The notes under the pieces: generated by a model
What the model saw: the letters and a program-made list of their open reading frames with translations, nothing else
Database searches by the model: none
What the model was told of the DNA's origin: nothing
Assembly (NCBI GenBank): GCA_022340465.1
Contig: JAJDNW010000130.1
Span: 1 to 64,000, forward strand
Source: Deltaproteobacteria bacterium
GTDB lineage: Bacteria; Desulfobacterota; Desulfobacteria; Desulfobacterales; B30-G6
Direction of reading: 5' to 3'
DNA: 64,000 bases
Shown here: one piece after another, positions 195 through 25,287 of the stretch
Layout: the number at the start of each line of letters is the position of its first letter
Position numbering within the stretch: the stretch's first letter is position 1
Made by a program: the position numbers and the translations under genes

Positions 195-270
195 ATCACG
201 AAAACACGAAAGAATGGAAACACGACGAGAAGAAAAAATTCGTGTTTTCATTCTTTCGTGTTTTCGTGAT
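195..270. repeat. 31-bp-arm hairpin repeat
   Basis: Arms 195-225 and 240-270 are inverted complements over 31 nt with one difference, and in a plus-strand RNA that difference would be a G-U pair. The 14-nt loop is A-rich. The arms are built from a short CACGAAAA-like unit. The element lies about 50 nt before the small selenoprotein candidate. There is no strong U tract directly after it, so a simple terminator is not obvious. Confidence 0.75.
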
Positions 271-321
271 TGTTCTTTTATTGAAAAGTTTTCGATTTAA
301 TTAATAGAGGAGGATGTTATC

Positions 322-504
322 GTGAATAACGCTGGATTAATATGCAGGGTCTGTGAGGGCGATCTCGGCATCCAACGCTCGTGACGCGAGATTGTGCTGC
401 GCTGCAGGTCGTGCGGCGCCGAATACAGCCTCAAAGAAGCCCTGGAACACATGGATGAGGATTTTGAGCGGCAGGTGGGGGATGTACGCTGTGACCGCTT
501 ATAA
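322..504 (+). CDS. Dual-CxxC small selenoprotein (Sec at UGA 382-384)
   Basis: This is a 60-residue reading frame if TGA 382-384 is read as selenocysteine (residue 21). It starts at GTG 322, 8 nt after the Shine-Dalgarno AGAGGAGG (306-313), and ends at TAA 502-504. Cys8-x2-Cys11 lies before the TGA and Cys28-x2-Cys31 after it, both in the same frame, followed by an acidic helical tail (residues 36-56). The coding character continues past the TGA without a shift, and a SECIS-like hairpin sits 14 nt downstream. From memory, a family of small dual-CXXC (seleno)proteins is annotated in Desulfobacterota; its function is unknown to me, and a zinc-ribbon or redox role is inference. selA is present at 23.9-25.3 kb. 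Stop-aware gene calling would miss it or truncate it to 20 codons. Confidence 0.8.
382..419 (+). promoter_or_regulatory. UGA codon plus bacterial SECIS-like hairpin
   Basis: Downstream of UGA 382-384, GCGCUGC (399-405) pairs with GCGGCGC (413-419) as a 7-bp stem containing one G-U pair. The loop is AGGUCGU (406-412). A GGU-bearing apical loop roughly 15-35 nt after the UGA is the known mark of SelB-dependent SECIS elements, and the UGCAGGUC at the stem top resembles the Escherichia coli fdhF element. The hairpin also encodes the second CxxC, so the sequence is constrained at both levels. Confidence 0.75.
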
Positions 505-531: not shown

Positions 532-1443
532 ATGGTTTTTTCAAGCTTATTTCCGGTGTTCGCCCTTCTTTTGCTGGGCAACCTGGCCAAACGGTTCGGT
601 CTGACCGATGATGACTTCCTGAAGACTTCCGACCGGTTGATCTACTTCATTTTCTTTCCGGTGCTGTTGTTCTGGAAAATCGGCGGTGCGGACACCGGCG
701 GTGGTGTCGCCTGGAATCTGTGCCTGGCAGGACTGGCCGCCATTGCCGCCGTCTACCTGGTCAGTGCGACGGCTTTGAAAATCTTCAGGGTCTCCCATTT
801 CAAGGCGGGTACCTTTTCGCAGAGCTGCTACCGATTCAACACTTACATCGGCATGGCCGTCGTTTACAACGCCCTGGGGGACGAAGGGGTCAAGCACTTC
901 GGGATCATGGTGGGTTTCGTCATACCGTTCATCAACGTCCTGGCTGTTTCGACGCTGATCTGGCATTCGGGTGAGCGCATGGCGCTTGAGAGCCGAATAC
1001 GGATAACCCTGCGGGAGATCGTCACCAACCCGCTGATCATCGGCTGCCTGGCAGGCCTTTTGTATGCGCGTACGATCAACACCTTTCCGACTTTTCTGGA
1101 CAACGCCCTCCGCCTGTCCACCGCCGTGGCCCTGCCCCTGGCGTTGCTTTCCATCGGCGGTGCGCTGACCCTTAAGAGCATGCGGGGGAACGCACTGCTG
1201 TCGGTGGTCGCCGCGGTGATCAAACTATTGATTCTGCCAGGGATCGGATATGGTATGCTCAGATGGTTCGGCGTGTCGGGAATTCCCTTCAAGGTGGGGA
1301 TGATCTATTTCACCCTGCCGGCTTCGGCGTCCATCTACGTTCTTTCCGCACAGCTGAAGAGCGATACGGAACTCGCTTCCGCGGCGGTCGTGCTGTCGAC
1401 GGTGCTGTCGTTTTTTTCGCTGACAATGGGGCTTCTGCTGTGA
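532..1443 (+). CDS. AEC family (auxin efflux carrier-like) transporter
   Basis: A 303-residue, highly hydrophobic protein with about ten predicted membrane segments in two halves separated by a polar stretch near residues 145-165. This is the layout of the Mem_trans/AEC family, inner-membrane carriers for organic anions such as malate or malonate. The substrate cannot be read from sequence. The start at ATG 532 has no convincing Shine-Dalgarno. Its stop codon overlaps the GTG start of truA, which suggests translational coupling. It lies 27 nt after the selenoprotein candidate on the same strand and may share its transcript. Confidence 0.8.
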   Translation: MVFSSLFPVFALLLLGNLAKRFGLTDDDFLKTSDRLIYFIFFPVLLFWKIGGADTGGGVAWNLCLAGLAAIAAVYLVSATALKIFRVSHFKAGTFSQSCYRFNTYIGMAVVYNALGDEGVKHFGIMVGFVIPFINVLAVSTLIWHSGERMALESRIRITLREIVTNPLIIGCLAGLLYARTINTFPTFLDNALRLSTAVALPLALLSIGGALTLKSMRGNALLSVVAAVIKLLILPGIGYGMLRWFGVSGIPFKVGMIYFTLPASASIYVLSAQLKSDTELASAAVVLSTVLSFFSLTMGLLL

Positions 1444-2177
1444 AGAACTATCTCATCACCATCGAGTACGACGGAACCGCCTATCACGGGTGGCAGCGCC
1501 AGAAAAACGATGCGACGGTGCAGGCCGAGATCGAGCGCGCACTGGCGGTAATGACCCGTGAAACGATTGTCGTGAATGGCTCCGGAAGGACGGACGCCGG
1601 TGTGCATGCCCTGGCGCAGACGGCGAATTTCAAGAGCGGTGCCGGACTGTCTCCGCAAGCCTTCAGGATGGGGCTCAACAGCCTGTTGAATGGGGACATC
1701 GTCATCAGGGACTGCCGGACGGTGGCGGACGCCTTTCATGCCCGGTATGATGCCAGGGGAAAAGTCTATCGGTACCGTATTTGGAACGACAGCCTTCCTA
1801 CAGCCATCGAGCGGCGGTATGTCTGGCATATTCGCAGTGAACTGGATTTTTATGCCATGCAGAAGGCCGCTGCTTTGACAATCGGCGAACACGACTTCAG
1901 GGCGTTCGAGGGGGCCGGGAGTCCGCGGTCGACCACGGTCCGCAGGGTGACGAGGGCCGAACTGGCCAGAGATCTCTCCGGCAACATCCGTTTCACCATC
2001 GAGGCCGATGGGTTCTTGAGGTACATGGTGCGCAACATCGTCGGCACGCTCGTGGATGTCGGCCGTTCCAGGATGCGCCCGGAGGATTTTAAAACCGTTC
2101 TCGAATCCCGGGACCGGGCACAAGCCGGGGCGACGGCTCCGCCGCAGGGGTTGTATCTAGTAAAAGTGGTTTATTAG
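1440..2177 (+). CDS. truA: tRNA pseudouridine synthase A
   Basis: A 245-residue protein, the usual TruA length, which converts uridines 38-40 of the tRNA anticodon arm to pseudouridine in the cytoplasm. The catalytic motif GRTDAGVHA is at residues 49-57, with the nucleophile Asp52. The N-terminal KNYLITIEYDGTAYHGWQ block is typical of the family. The start chosen is GTG 1440, because upstream codons in this frame lie inside the AEC gene and the family alignment begins here. It overlaps the AEC stop codon (1441-1443) by 4 nt. Confidence 0.95.
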   Translation: MKNYLITIEYDGTAYHGWQRQKNDATVQAEIERALAVMTRETIVVNGSGRTDAGVHALAQTANFKSGAGLSPQAFRMGLNSLLNGDIVIRDCRTVADAFHARYDARGKVYRYRIWNDSLPTAIERRYVWHIRSELDFYAMQKAAALTIGEHDFRAFEGAGSPRSTTVRRVTRAELARDLSGNIRFTIEADGFLRYMVRNIVGTLVDVGRSRMRPEDFKTVLESRDRAQAGATAPPQGLYLVKVVY

Positions 2178-2252: not shown

Positions 2253-4073
2253 ACGCTGACCGTTCTGCTTCATTTTCCCGATTTTTTCGTTGTAGAAGGC
2301 AATGACTTCCCGGCGGTTCAGCATGCCGATCAATTCTCCGTGGTCCTCGTCGGCGACCACCGGAAGGCTGTCGATGTTCTTTTCGGTGAATTTTTGCAGA
2401 ACCGAATTCAGATCGTCCGAAGGCGTGGTGACGATGATGTCGGAGGTGCCGATATCCTGCATTCTCACCAGGTCCTCTATTTCACTGGAAAACAGCACGC
2501 CCCTCACGTCGTTGATGGAAAAAATGGCGATAAGCTTTTCATTGCCGTCCATGACCGGGAAATAGTGCTGTTTGGTGTTGGAAAAAAATGTCTTGAATTC
2601 GCCGAAAGCCATGTCCTGGGGGATGAGGGTCACCTTTTTCACATGATCCATGAGATCCTTGACGCGGATGGCCTGAAGGATGTCCACAAAAAAATCGCCG
2701 GCGTGGGCCGGGGAGTCTATTTTGCTTTTCACCTGTTCGTGATAAATGCTCCATTTTTTTGAAGCCATGAAGGTAAGGGAGCAGACCAGAAGGCTTGGCA
2801 GCAGTAGGTGGTAGGAATTGGTCATTTCACTCACGAAGATGATCGTGGAGATCGGCGTGTTGGATACCGCCGTGAAAAAACCGGCCATGCCCACGACGAC
2901 AAAAGCCCCCGGTTCGGTGACGACGTTGGGCAAAAGCCCGTGAAAGACTTTTCCCACCGCGCCGCCCATGGCGCCCCCGATGACGACGGACGGACCGAAG
3001 ACGCCGCCACTGCCGCCGGATCCGATGGAAAATGACGTGGTGAAAATTTTTCCAATGGCCAGAAAGAGCAGAAAGGGGATGGTCAGTTGGTTGTCCAGGG
3101 CCATCTGCGCGAATCCGTAGCCGAAAGCGAGGGTTTGCGGCAAAAAAAAGCCGATGATACCGGTCGCCAGACCCCCGATGGCCGGTTTGACGTGGTTGGG
3201 GATTTTTATCGCCCTGAAAAGGTCCATAATGCCGTAGAACGACTTGACGTACAATACGGCGAGCCCCACGAGAATGAAAGCGAGAACGATGTAGGGGCCC
3301 AGTTCCATTGGGTTGCTGAACCTGAAATCCGCGGAATCGAAAAGAGAGCCCCATCCGAACACCAGGCAGAAAACACAGTAGGCCACCACGCTTGAAATCC
3401 CCGCCGGAATGATGACTTCGGACTCGAATTCCGGGTCGCGGTAGAGCACTTCGGCGGCAAACAGGGCGCCGGCCAGAGGGGCGCGAAAGATGCTGCCCAC
3501 CCCGGCACCGATGCCGGCCGCCATCATGATCCTGCGTTCACGTTCGGACAATTTGAGTTTGGTCGCCAGAAAGGACCCGAATCCGGCGCCGATCTGGGCA
3601 ATGGGGCCTTCACGCCCGCCGGATCCGCCCGTGGCCAATGTGATGGCGGAAGCGATGGTTTTGATAATGGGCACCCGGCTGCGGATGAGCCCGCCGGCCC
3701 GGTGATAGGCATCGATAGCGGCATCGGTTCCATGCCCTTCGGCTTCGGGGGCGTAGGTATAGACGATCCACCCGCTGAGCAGACCGCCGGCGGCCGGTAG
3801 CAGCAGCAGAATCCAACGGTTGAAGGGCGTGGCAGTCGGTGGCATCAGGTGATGCTCCCCGGCAGGCGCTGGCGGCCGGTAACCGGCCGCCATATCCATG
3901 AAATAGTGAATGCCGAGTTGGCAGAGATAGTGAAAAAGGACGGACCCCAATCCGGCGATCAGGCCGATGGCCACGAAATAGAACATCCACTTGCCGGCGT
4001 GGGCGATGTTGAAATTTCTGTCCTGCCCCGCCAGCCGGTTGATCCACATTTTTATAATCGAGTCATTCCGCAT
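2250..4073 (-). CDS. ClC-type chloride channel/antiporter with C-terminal CBS pair
   Basis: A large ClC membrane protein (607 residues from ATG 4073). It has the signature GSGGREGP (about residues 150-157), whose glutamate is the gating/proton-coupling residue in the family, and the second filter block GSGGSGGVFGP near residue 350. About ten or more hydrophobic helices fill residues 25-450. Two CBS domains follow (about 470-600) and probably sense nucleotides. Whether it is a channel or an H+/Cl- exchanger cannot be decided by eye. The start is uncertain: GTG 4106 would overlap the aminotransferase end, while ATG 4073 follows its stop by 4 nt; neither has a clear ribosome site. It probably shares a transcript with that aminotransferase. 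Confidence 0.9.
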   Translation of the reverse strand: MRNDSIIKMWINRLAGQDRNFNIAHAGKWMFYFVAIGLIAGLGSVLFHYLCQLGIHYFMDMAAGYRPPAPAGEHHLMPPTATPFNRWILLLLPAAGGLLSGWIVYTYAPEAEGHGTDAAIDAYHRAGGLIRSRVPIIKTIASAITLATGGSGGREGPIAQIGAGFGSFLATKLKLSERERRIMMAAGIGAGVGSIFRAPLAGALFAAEVLYRDPEFESEVIIPAGISSVVAYCVFCLVFGWGSLFDSADFRFSNPMELGPYIVLAFILVGLAVLYVKSFYGIMDLFRAIKIPNHVKPAIGGLATGIIGFFLPQTLAFGYGFAQMALDNQLTIPFLLFLAIGKIFTTSFSIGSGGSGGVFGPSVVIGGAMGGAVGKVFHGLLPNVVTEPGAFVVVGMAGFFTAVSNTPISTIIFVSEMTNSYHLLLPSLLVCSLTFMASKKWSIYHEQVKSKIDSPAHAGDFFVDILQAIRVKDLMDHVKKVTLIPQDMAFGEFKTFFSNTKQHYFPVMDGNEKLIAIFSINDVRGVLFSSEIEDLVRMQDIGTSDIIVTTPSDDLNSVLQKFTEKNIDSLPVVADEDHGELIGMLNRREVIAFYNEKIGKMKQNGQR

Positions 4074-4077
4074 AAAA

Positions 4078-5394
4078 TTAGGGCGAATTGTCAATATCGT
4101 CGACACCCTGCAACATGGTGTCGAACAGCGTCGCTATGTCTCCTTCTTCGATGCAGGAAAAAGCCACCCTGATGTTGTTTTCTCCTATGGCGATCAAGCC
4201 GACCCCGTATTTTTCGAGCAGGTGCACCCGCAATTTCTCGGCATTGACACGTTTGAGGCGGAGGCACATGAAGTATCCGGAGTTGAAGGGGTATAGGTCC
4301 CACGCATTCTTGTATTTCGGGTCTTGAAGCACGCTTTTTACCTTGAGGGCACGCGCCTTCAACACCTCGAATTTTGCCCGCTTCTCAGCAGGGAACTTTT
4401 CATTCTGCATCGATTTGAGAACGATGGACTGGCCCAGGTGGGACGCGTTGGAGATATTGCCCCGGATGCACCCGGCGGTTTTCTTTTCCAGGGCCGTGTA
4501 AACGGATTCCTCGTTGCCGCCCGCTGCCGCGCCATAGGTGATGAATCCCACCCTGAGACCCCACACGAAATTTTCCTTTGTGCAGCCGTCCAACTTTACG
4601 GCCAGAAGGCGCGGATCGCTGCCGCACAGCTTGGCAAACAACGACTCCTGCAGGGTGTCTTGTTCATAGAAAAGGCCGAAATAGGCGTCGTCGGTGACAG
4701 CGACGACATGGGTGCCTTCCCTTGCCGTATCGATGAGAATTTCCGCAATCCGGTCCCCCTCCACCTTGGTGGCAGTGTAACCGGTCGGATTGTGGGGAAA
4801 GTTGAGCAGTACGGTGATTTTGCTATGGTGTGCCGCTTCGTCCCTTACCGCCGCTTGGAAGGCCTCGGTATCGAAGGTGCCCTGATCCGTAAACATCGGA
4901 TAGGTGCGGATACGGGCTCCCTTTTTCACGTTGAAGACCATGTTGTAGTTGCCCCACATCATGTCGGGCAGTATGACCACGTCGCCGGGATCGAGCCAGA
5001 GGTCGGCGAACATGCTGATGCCGTGCGTGACGCCGCACGTGACCACGGGCAGGCTGATGGCTTTCCCGGCAAGTGAACTGTTTTTTTTGTAGAGGGATGA
5101 TTGCCAGATCTTGCGCAGTCCCGGGATACCGAAAGAGGGGGCGTAGGTCAGGGATTCGCTGGCCCGGATCTCTCTGATGGCCTCCATGACGGACTCGAGG
5201 TGCATGGTGTGGCCGCCCTCTTTGGCAATGCCAATGGTGGCGTTCAGCTTGTGTGCCTTTTCTTTTGCTTCTGCACTCTGGCTGAGGATGCCCTTGGGAA
5301 AGAAAAGCGCCTTGCCGATGCCGGAAAGCATTTCGATCAGGTGCGGATTCCCCGCTTCGATAATCTCATTCAATTCCCGGGCGATGGGATTCAT
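4078..5394 (-). CDS. Class I/II PLP-dependent aminotransferase
   Basis: A 438-residue fold-type I aminotransferase. The NFPHNPTG block (about residues 198-205) contacts PLP and substrate. The likely Schiff-base lysine is Lys273 in DGCTKENFVWGLRVGF, which replaces the more common SLSK block. Substrate specificity is not apparent; aromatic or branched-chain amino acids are possible. The start is ATG 5394 rather than the in-frame ATG 5415, because AAGGAGG lies 7 nt before 5394 and falls inside the longer version. The ClC gene follows 4 nt after the stop. Confidence 0.88.
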   Translation of the reverse strand: MNPIARELNEIIEAGNPHLIEMLSGIGKALFFPKGILSQSAEAKEKAHKLNATIGIAKEGGHTMHLESVMEAIREIRASESLTYAPSFGIPGLRKIWQSSLYKKNSSLAGKAISLPVVTCGVTHGISMFADLWLDPGDVVILPDMMWGNYNMVFNVKKGARIRTYPMFTDQGTFDTEAFQAAVRDEAAHHSKITVLLNFPHNPTGYTATKVEGDRIAEILIDTAREGTHVVAVTDDAYFGLFYEQDTLQESLFAKLCGSDPRLLAVKLDGCTKENFVWGLRVGFITYGAAAGGNEESVYTALEKKTAGCIRGNISNASHLGQSIVLKSMQNEKFPAEKRAKFEVLKARALKVKSVLQDPKYKNAWDLYPFNSGYFMCLRLKRVNAEKLRVHLLEKYGVGLIAIGENNIRVAFSCIEEGDIATLFDTMLQGVDDIDNSP

Positions 5395-5696: not shown

Positions 5697-5975
5697 TTAG
5701 CGGCTTGCGCGCTTGGATGCTTTGAGCGGATTGATTTTCTGCTTTTTCTGGGTGGAAACGGTTGAGACATGCGACGCCATGTTGCAGTTTCCGTTTTTCC
5801 ACTTGAGCGCCGGATCCGGGCACGCCGAACAGTACCATCCCGAACCGTTTTCCATTTTGCGGTTGCAGCCGTCACAATTCTCTATGGTCTGATGACAAAT
5901 CCCGCCGTTGTAGGAACACCCTTGTTTGGTCATGAAAGGGCATTCATTTCCTTTTCTAACCGTTGTACATTCCAT
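5697..5975 (-). CDS. PxxKW family cysteine-rich small protein
   Basis: A 92-residue protein with nine cysteines at positions 3, 12, 20, 27, 34, 37, 49, 52 and 64, and the PALKW motif (55-59) that gives this family its name in Desulfobacterota annotation. The tail (70-92) is basic. The cysteine spacing suggests metal or iron-sulfur binding, but that is inference and no function is known to me. The start is ATG 5975, because AGGGGGTGATTCC just before it is almost a perfect anti-16S match; GTG 5984 lies inside that site. A consensus promoter (6076-6104), a leader terminator (6013-6045) and a 3' terminator make this a self-contained transcription unit. Confidence 0.85.
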   Translation of the reverse strand: MECTTVRKGNECPFMTKQGCSYNGGICHQTIENCDGCNRKMENGSGWYCSACPDPALKWKNGNCNMASHVSTVSTQKKQKINPLKASKRASR

Positions 5976-6012
5976 TGGAATCACCCCCTAAATTTTGGTA
6001 GGTTGCATTGAT

Positions 6013-23758: not shown

Positions 23759-23859
23759 ATATTGTTTACGGATAGTTAATAGCGGCCCGCTTCGGAAAAT
23801 GTCCGCGATGGAGGCCGGCAAACGCCGTGTGCGGCGGGATGGCACGGGTGAGGGGACCC

Positions 23860-25287
23860 ATGGTCAAGGATGACATCAAACGGGAATTGTTGAAAAACCT
23901 GCCGGGAGTCGATCACCTGCTGGAACGCATGCGGACCGATCCGCGGTTCGACGGTGTCCCGCGTTCGGTCAGGCTGGCCGGCGCCAGGGAGGCGATCGAG
24001 GAGATACGGGCGTCCATCCTCCGGGGCGACCCGGATAGCGCTGCGTCCCTTGTACAGGACGCAGGTGCGCTGGAGAAGGCCTGCCGAATCGCCGAAAAGC
24101 GTATGGCTCTCAATCTGCACCCGCTGGTCAACGCCACCGGGGTTATTGTGCACACGAACCTCGGGCGTTCACGGCTGGCCGCAGCCGCCATCAGCAACCT
24201 CGAGGCCATCGGAGCCGGGTATTCAAACCTTGAATTCGATCTTGCATCCGGAAAAAGGGGGTCGCGCTACAGTGCCGTCGAGGACCTGATTTGTGAAATC
24301 AGTGGTGCCGAGGCGGCCATGGCGGTAAACAACAACGCGGGTGGCGTGCTGCTCTGCCTGGATACGCTTGCCAAGGGGAAAAAAGTGGTGGTTTCACGGG
24401 GCGAACTCGTGGAAATAGGAGGCTCTTTCCGGATTCCGGATGTAATGGCCAAAAGCGGCGCCCTGCTCACGGAGGTGGGCGCCACCAATCGCACCCACGC
24501 CAGGGACTATGAAACGGCGATCGACAGTGAAACCGCTTTACTGCTGAAGGTGCACACGAGCAATTTCAGTGTGGTGGGCTTTACCAAGAGCCTGTCCCTG
24601 AAAGAACTGGTGGCCATGGGTAGACAACATCGGTTGCCGGTGATGGAGGACCTCGGCAGCGGAACCTTCGTCGATTTTTCCAAATACGGCGGTATCAATG
24701 AACCGACCGTGCAGGAATCGATCGCCGCCGGGCTGGACGTCGTTACCTTCAGCGGCGACAAGTTGCTGGGCGGACCCCAGGCCGGCATCATTGCGGGATC
24801 GAAGGCGATTCTCGACAGAATCAAACAGAATCCGCTCACGAGGGCCCTGCGCATCGACAAACTGACCCTCGCCGCGTTGGAGAGCACCCTGCGTCTTTAC
24901 AGGGATGAAAAACAGGCCGTTGAAGAAATTCCCACATTGAAAATGCTGACGGCAGCACCGGAAATCCTGGAGGAGAAAGCCGGGCGGCTTGCCGCTATGC
25001 TTGAACGGACGGCCGGGGAACATTTCGATGTAAGGACGATCGGAGGGACCTCCCGCGCGGGAGGAGGAGCCATGCCGCTTGCGGATCTGCCGACCACCTG
25101 TGTGGGCGTCGAACCGAAAGGCATGTCGGTAAACCGGTTGGAGCGGCTTCTCCGTGGCGGGCGGCCAGCGGTCATCGGGCGGATCGAAGCGGATCTTTTT
25201 ATTCTGGATGTTCGCACCGTGCGGGAAGATGAATTTCCCATCATCGTGAATGCGGTGAAAAGCGTCATGCGGACGGGCGATGCATGA
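23860..25287 (+). CDS. selA: L-seryl-tRNA(Sec) selenium transferase
   Basis: A 475-residue PLP enzyme that converts Ser-tRNA(Sec) to Sec-tRNA(Sec) using selenophosphate. The PLP lysine is Lys301 in FSGDKLLGGPQAG, close to Lys295 of the E. coli enzyme, and HPLVNATGVIVHTNLGRS is a hallmark block. The start is ATG 23860, with a GAGGGG site; ATG 23839 is also possible. Its presence means selenoproteins should exist in this genome, matching the candidate at 322-504. selB, selD and selC are not in the window; the next gene is unrelated, separated by about 50 nt. Confidence 0.95.
   Translation: MVKDDIKRELLKNLPGVDHLLERMRTDPRFDGVPRSVRLAGAREAIEEIRASILRGDPDSAASLVQDAGALEKACRIAEKRMALNLHPLVNATGVIVHTNLGRSRLAAAAISNLEAIGAGYSNLEFDLASGKRGSRYSAVEDLICEISGAEAAMAVNNNAGGVLLCLDTLAKGKKVVVSRGELVEIGGSFRIPDVMAKSGALLTEVGATNRTHARDYETAIDSETALLLKVHTSNFSVVGFTKSLSLKELVAMGRQHRLPVMEDLGSGTFVDFSKYGGINEPTVQESIAAGLDVVTFSGDKLLGGPQAGIIAGSKAILDRIKQNPLTRALRIDKLTLAALESTLRLYRDEKQAVEEIPTLKMLTAAPEILEEKAGRLAAMLERTAGEHFDVRTIGGTSRAGGGAMPLADLPTTCVGVEPKGMSVNRLERLLRGGRPAVIGRIEADLFILDVRTVREDEFPIIVNAVKSVMRTGDA

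Follow-up and report, generated by a model that had tools for sequence, protein, structure and literature searches.

A 60-residue protein encoded near the start of the window, the whole 64,000-nucleotide stretch of DNA analysed here, is in all likelihood (a probability of roughly 0.93) a selenoprotein of family NF041197, also called OS_HP3, whose UGA at codon 21 would be decoded as selenocysteine; this reading draws on comparison of sequences. Read directly, with TGA taken as a residue, the frame runs from a GTG start to a TAA stop at 502-504 and gives the translation VNNAGLICRVCEGDLGIQRSUREIVLRCRSCGAEYSLKEALEHMDEDFERQVGDVRCDRL*. An earlier note on this DNA had described the same arrangement, a Shine-Dalgarno-led GTG frame with one CxxC at residues 8-11, TGA at codon 21, a second CxxC at residues 28-31 and an acidic C-terminal part before the TAA, and our reading confirmed each of these elements (Table 1). 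It had also warned that stop-based calling would lose the gene, and the standard ORF listing indeed halts at the TGA and does not report the protein.

Table 1. Features of the window around the candidate selenoprotein gene and its decoding machinery.
Feature	Position	Strand	Details
Shine-Dalgarno AGGAGG	308..313	+	8 nt before the GTG start codon; read directly
Gene of the probable 60-residue selenoprotein	322..504	+	CxxC at residues 8-11 and 28-31, Sec at 21; NF041197 match; whole-genome search
In-frame TGA, probable selenocysteine codon 21	382..384	+	101 TGA, 28 Cys and 1 TGG among homologues
SECIS-type hairpin	399..419	+	8-bp upper stem 399-406/412-419, loop GGUCG 407-411; fold, rules, covariation
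AEC / Mem_trans (auxin efflux carrier type) transporter gene	532..1443	+	Pfam PF03547; 27 nt downstream of the selenoprotein gene
truA, tRNA pseudouridine(38-40) synthase	1440..2177	+	TIGR00071, over cut-off
selA, L-seryl-tRNA(Sec) selenium transferase	23827..25287	+	TIGR00474, 593 bits against a cut-off of 268

The protein matches the NCBIfam profile NF041197, "dual CXXC motif small (seleno)protein", with 69.4 bits (E = 2.1e-19; cut-off 40 bits), in an alignment that spans the TGA and covers the profile entirely (positions 1-53 of 53). The motifs that the family requires, C8-C11, R19-S20-U21 (RxU) and C28-C31, are all present and are invariant across 72 aligned members. The earlier note had mentioned a small dual-CXXC (seleno)protein family in Desulfobacterota, and NF041197 fits that description. 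In a 2026 review of selenoproteomes, NF041197 appears as 'Dual CXXC motif small protein (hypothetical protein OS_HP3)' with the motif RxU, and the first report is credited to Zhang and Gladyshev 2007 (PMC13188914); in a second study, OS_HP3 is the single known selenoprotein missed by the predictor in Desulfosarcina widdelii (PMC12013277). The family is thus not new, its assignment as a Sec protein has already been published from bioinformatic evidence, and the literature we searched gave no function for it. The window gene is an ordinary member, a new genome copy: it shares with NF041197/OS_HP3 the whole profile over cut-off, the length, the two CxxC pairs, the Sec within RxU, the SECIS-type hairpin and the phylum, and we see no difference that matters.

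A whole-genome search returned this single NF041197 copy, with one TGA inside the match, and 14 control genomes returned none. Within the order to which the window belongs the family is present in 187 of 291 sampled genomes, nearly always with exactly one TGA in the listed match, and at the level of the phylum in 112 of 395; some lineages carry forms without TGA (for example loci L153-L175). Hypothetical protein DW (PMC12013277) resembles the window protein in having a dual CxxC with the Sec between, and is filed under NF041197 as well, with the motif GxU (PMC13188914). That GxU motif and the absence of a C-terminal C-[DN]-R-[LI] set it apart from the window protein. A further member of the family, more divergent and bearing the motif CGGxAxIxGxU, mostly with TGA, is present in many genomes of the phylum (L182-L199, near base 3000 in each); it scores near the NF041197 cut-off and, judged by its motif, would fit hypothetical protein DW. 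The whole-genome search found no such DW-like second copy in the window genome.

Alignment of homologues for Cys or UGA at the selenocysteine codon had been proposed as a check, and the outcome favours the selenoprotein reading: among 130 homologues the column holds TGA in 101, a Cys codon in 28 (20 TGC and 8 TGT) and TGG in one. As evidence to the contrary the earlier note had named a sense codon other than Cys or Sec, or a frame that is not conserved after the TGA. The only such sense codon is the TGG of L065 (single-contig genome; about position 4963 of the reverse complement, on the minus strand). In this copy the first CxxC is disrupted as well (VPLKCGG, as opposed to CLKCNG in a relative such as L024), although the hairpin core TGCAGGTCATGCA is kept; the copy looks like a decayed gene or an assembly error. 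The closest relative found (L001/L002) retains both the TGA and the frame on either side of it. Non-synonymous differences affect 6 of 31 codons after the TGA and 6 of 20 before it, so that changes downstream are no more damaging than those upstream.

The RNA just downstream of the codon points in the same direction. Since Rfam at gathering thresholds gave no match in the window, the hairpin was assessed by published rules and by covariation. It lies 22 nt after the UGA, has a folding energy of -19.3 to -20.5 kcal/mol and conforms to the bacterial SECIS model as quoted in PMC13188914. In counts that overstate the number of events, because related sequences are not independent, the rules are passed by 90/101 TGA homologues as against 13/28 Cys homologues; the two stem pairs freest to vary, +17:+33 and +18:+32, are paired in 90 and 91 of the 101 TGA forms, where shuffling gives expectations of 67 and 78, and in only 8 and 12 of the 28 Cys forms. 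Changes at these pairs in TGA forms include G-C to A-U and U-A, and the innermost pairs are fixed by invariant TGC codons and say little. From these alignments we read covariation of the stem where the codon is TGA, and its loss in most cases where the codon is Cys. This column-wise covariation separates Sec from Cys forms, unlike total energy: under synonymous randomisation the two groups had mean z values of -0.70 and -0.55, and the window hairpin taken alone is no more stable than shuffled sequence (z -0.90).

The loop of the hairpin coincides with the pair of codons that separate the cysteines of the second CxxC. Among the TGA forms, again related and hence non-independent sequences, the first of these codons is AGG in 68 of the 77 cases in which it encodes Arg, compared with 7 of 209 Arg codons nearby, while Cys forms have Pro, Thr, Ser and other residues there. 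We take this bias to mean that the SECIS limits which residues the second knuckle, C-R-S-C, can have. That a SECIS loop lying on the gene's own second CxxC would restrict the protein sequence at that place is mildly new.

Besides selA, found within the window, the genome has selB, selD and tRNA-Sec, and the Sec machinery is complete. The premise of the earlier note, a bacterium with SelA in which a SECIS hairpin follows the UGA, is thereby borne out, and so is its conclusion of a probable selenoprotein, by the exchange of Cys and UGA together with a covarying hairpin and the presence of SelA, SelB, SelD and tRNA-Sec. The selD gene of this genome (L150, G000:C13:29872-30798) itself contains one internal TGA, and its product is probably a selenoprotein too. 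We also considered whether the family tracks the use of Sec; selA scores over the cut-off in 60/60 genomes carrying the family and also in 57/61 genomes without it, and a specific link was discarded on that account. All 29 tested genomes with Cys forms (L153-L175, L053, L056, L059) have selA, so loss of the Sec machinery does not explain the replacement by Cys.

Two other ways of reading the TGA have to be set against these observations. Were it an ordinary stop, as its place at the end of the frame in a standard ORF listing implies, the gene would make a 20-residue peptide or be a pseudogene, and the downstream frame would be a remnant. We give this next to no credence: 129 of 130 homologues from many genera have TGA or Cys at the codon, the frame beyond it keeps an invariant CxxC and Arg-59, the closest relative found preserves the TGA and the frame, and the hairpin covaries in the TGA forms. 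Decoding as tryptophan, or general readthrough, could draw on the lone TGG homologue and deserves practically no weight, as 28 of the 29 sense-codon homologues have Cys, the adjoining transporter gene terminates at TGA, the hairpin is specific to TGA forms and the Sec machinery is there to be used. Selenocysteine at codon 21 is the reading that we carry forward.

Beyond the probable identity of residue 21, the fold offers hints of its role. The alignment of 72 members shows the four CxxC cysteines, the Sec/Cys column and Arg-59 to be invariant, and residue 21 sits in a [RK]-[STA]-U-[RK]-like motif. An AlphaFold2 model of modest quality, with a mean pLDDT of 64 (about 80 for residues 11-30), has predicted strands at 14-19, 24-28 and 34-36, followed by helices; the plan of a zinc ribbon, two CxxC knuckles bracketing a β-hairpin plus a third strand, would fit this order. 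Its structural matches are weak and mostly zinc ribbons (Z up to 4.1, Foldseek E 0.08 at best), and weak sequence matches lead to zinc ribbons as well. On the basis of this model the two CxxC pairs probably form a zinc ribbon. The zinc ribbons matched, among them the RPB9 N-terminal domain, Trm112 and ZifS, likewise place two CxxC knuckles around a β-hairpin, but lack the Sec at the hairpin tip and the C-terminal CDRL motif of the window protein, and the similarity is too weak for a claim of homology.

The predicted fold puts Sec-21 into the turn that links strands 14-19 and 24-28, which leaves it at the end remote from the two knuckles, and this layout favours an exposed selenolate over a selenium ligand to metal. 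We therefore propose tentatively, and with somewhat less than even confidence, that Sec-21 is an exposed selenolate at the hairpin tip with a redox or nucleophilic role. The earlier note had placed the Sec between the CxxC pairs and suggested a redox or metal site; the position holds in the sequence, while a role of the Sec as metal ligand is unlikely. A metal carrier or sensor, with Sec-21 joining the CxxC cysteines around zinc or another metal in a selenium-containing site, would agree with a Sec flanked by two invariant CxxC pairs, all five positions being invariant as Cys or Sec. The four knuckle cysteines, though, are enough by themselves to make a zinc ribbon, and the turn predicted to hold the Sec is distant from them. 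The conserved Cys-57 near the C-terminus was considered as a resolving partner of the Sec; it occurs in 85 of 100 Sec forms and in 11 of 15 Cys forms, so that strict coupling between the two does not hold.

The gene neighbourhood supplies another kind of clue. The transporter gene following the selenoprotein gene is its probable operon partner, and the GTG start of truA overlaps the transporter stop. In 42 of 101 loci of the order, from about 24 families (an approximate figure, one family having been entered under two labels), the selenoprotein gene lies on the same strand at most 100 nt upstream of truA (21 loci) or of the transporter gene (21 loci). A conserved truA is found nearby in 46 of the 101 loci, the transporter is the next gene in 21, argJ is the next gene upstream, divergently oriented, in 46, and 45 loci have a gene for an RsuA/RluB-type pseudouridine synthase nearby; 33 loci lack all of these neighbours. 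At the phylum-level loci tested, the 1.5 kb around the gene contained no truA, argJ or other such neighbour, the one exception being a sugar-dehydrogenase match. This arrangement suggests co-transcription in part of the order and does not show a shared function.

Several further elements were seen in the surroundings. Just upstream of the gene, window positions 195-270 hold an inverted repeat with 31 nt at 97% complementarity and a 14-nt spacer, TCGTGTTTTCATTCTTTCGTGTTTTCGTGAT, one arm of which has near-copies with 2-3 mismatches at four other places in the genome; it is possibly a small dispersed repeat element. A second inverted repeat occupies 40-136, with 37-nt arms of 76% complementarity and a 23-nt spacer. 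A 95-residue cysteine-rich protein is encoded at 5697-5984 on the minus strand, and four other genomes have a similar one (cluster 16) in the vicinity of their selenoprotein gene.

The recurring closeness to truA, or to the transporter gene that precedes truA in the window, together with the pseudouridine synthase gene in 45 loci, might be taken to mean that the protein serves TruA or RNA modification as an accessory factor, the genes often being transcribed together. We regard this as very unlikely, because such neighbours are all absent from 33 loci, the phylum-level loci tested gave no truA or argJ match within 1.5 kb, and conserved gene order can stem from shared descent alone. A combined idea, in which the selenolate at the finger tip would work with TruA in a step of RNA modification that depends on selenium, or in the redox control of that modification, is a long shot.

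Taken as a working model, the preferred reading, a selenoprotein with an exposed Sec-21, would proceed as follows. SelB carrying Sec-tRNA(Sec), directed by the hairpin 22 nt downstream, would decode UGA-21 as selenocysteine and so yield the full-length protein. The two CxxC pairs would fold as the predicted zinc ribbon, in which zinc would do no more than hold the fold, and Sec-21 at the tip of the β-hairpin would be presented as an exposed selenolate, a redox or nucleophilic site that would act on some partner or substrate.

To the known family the present analysis adds a quantified SECIS constraint, a survey of Sec and Cys forms, and the conserved neighbourhood of truA, transporter and argJ. 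About two thirds of the sampled genomes in the order carry the gene, usually with UGA, and stop-based calling loses it easily. In this gene the SECIS loop coincides with the second CxxC of the encoded protein and appears to constrain the sequence at that place. The Sec and Cys forms, the mapped SECIS and the conserved neighbours together offer a clear test set for finding the function of this family.
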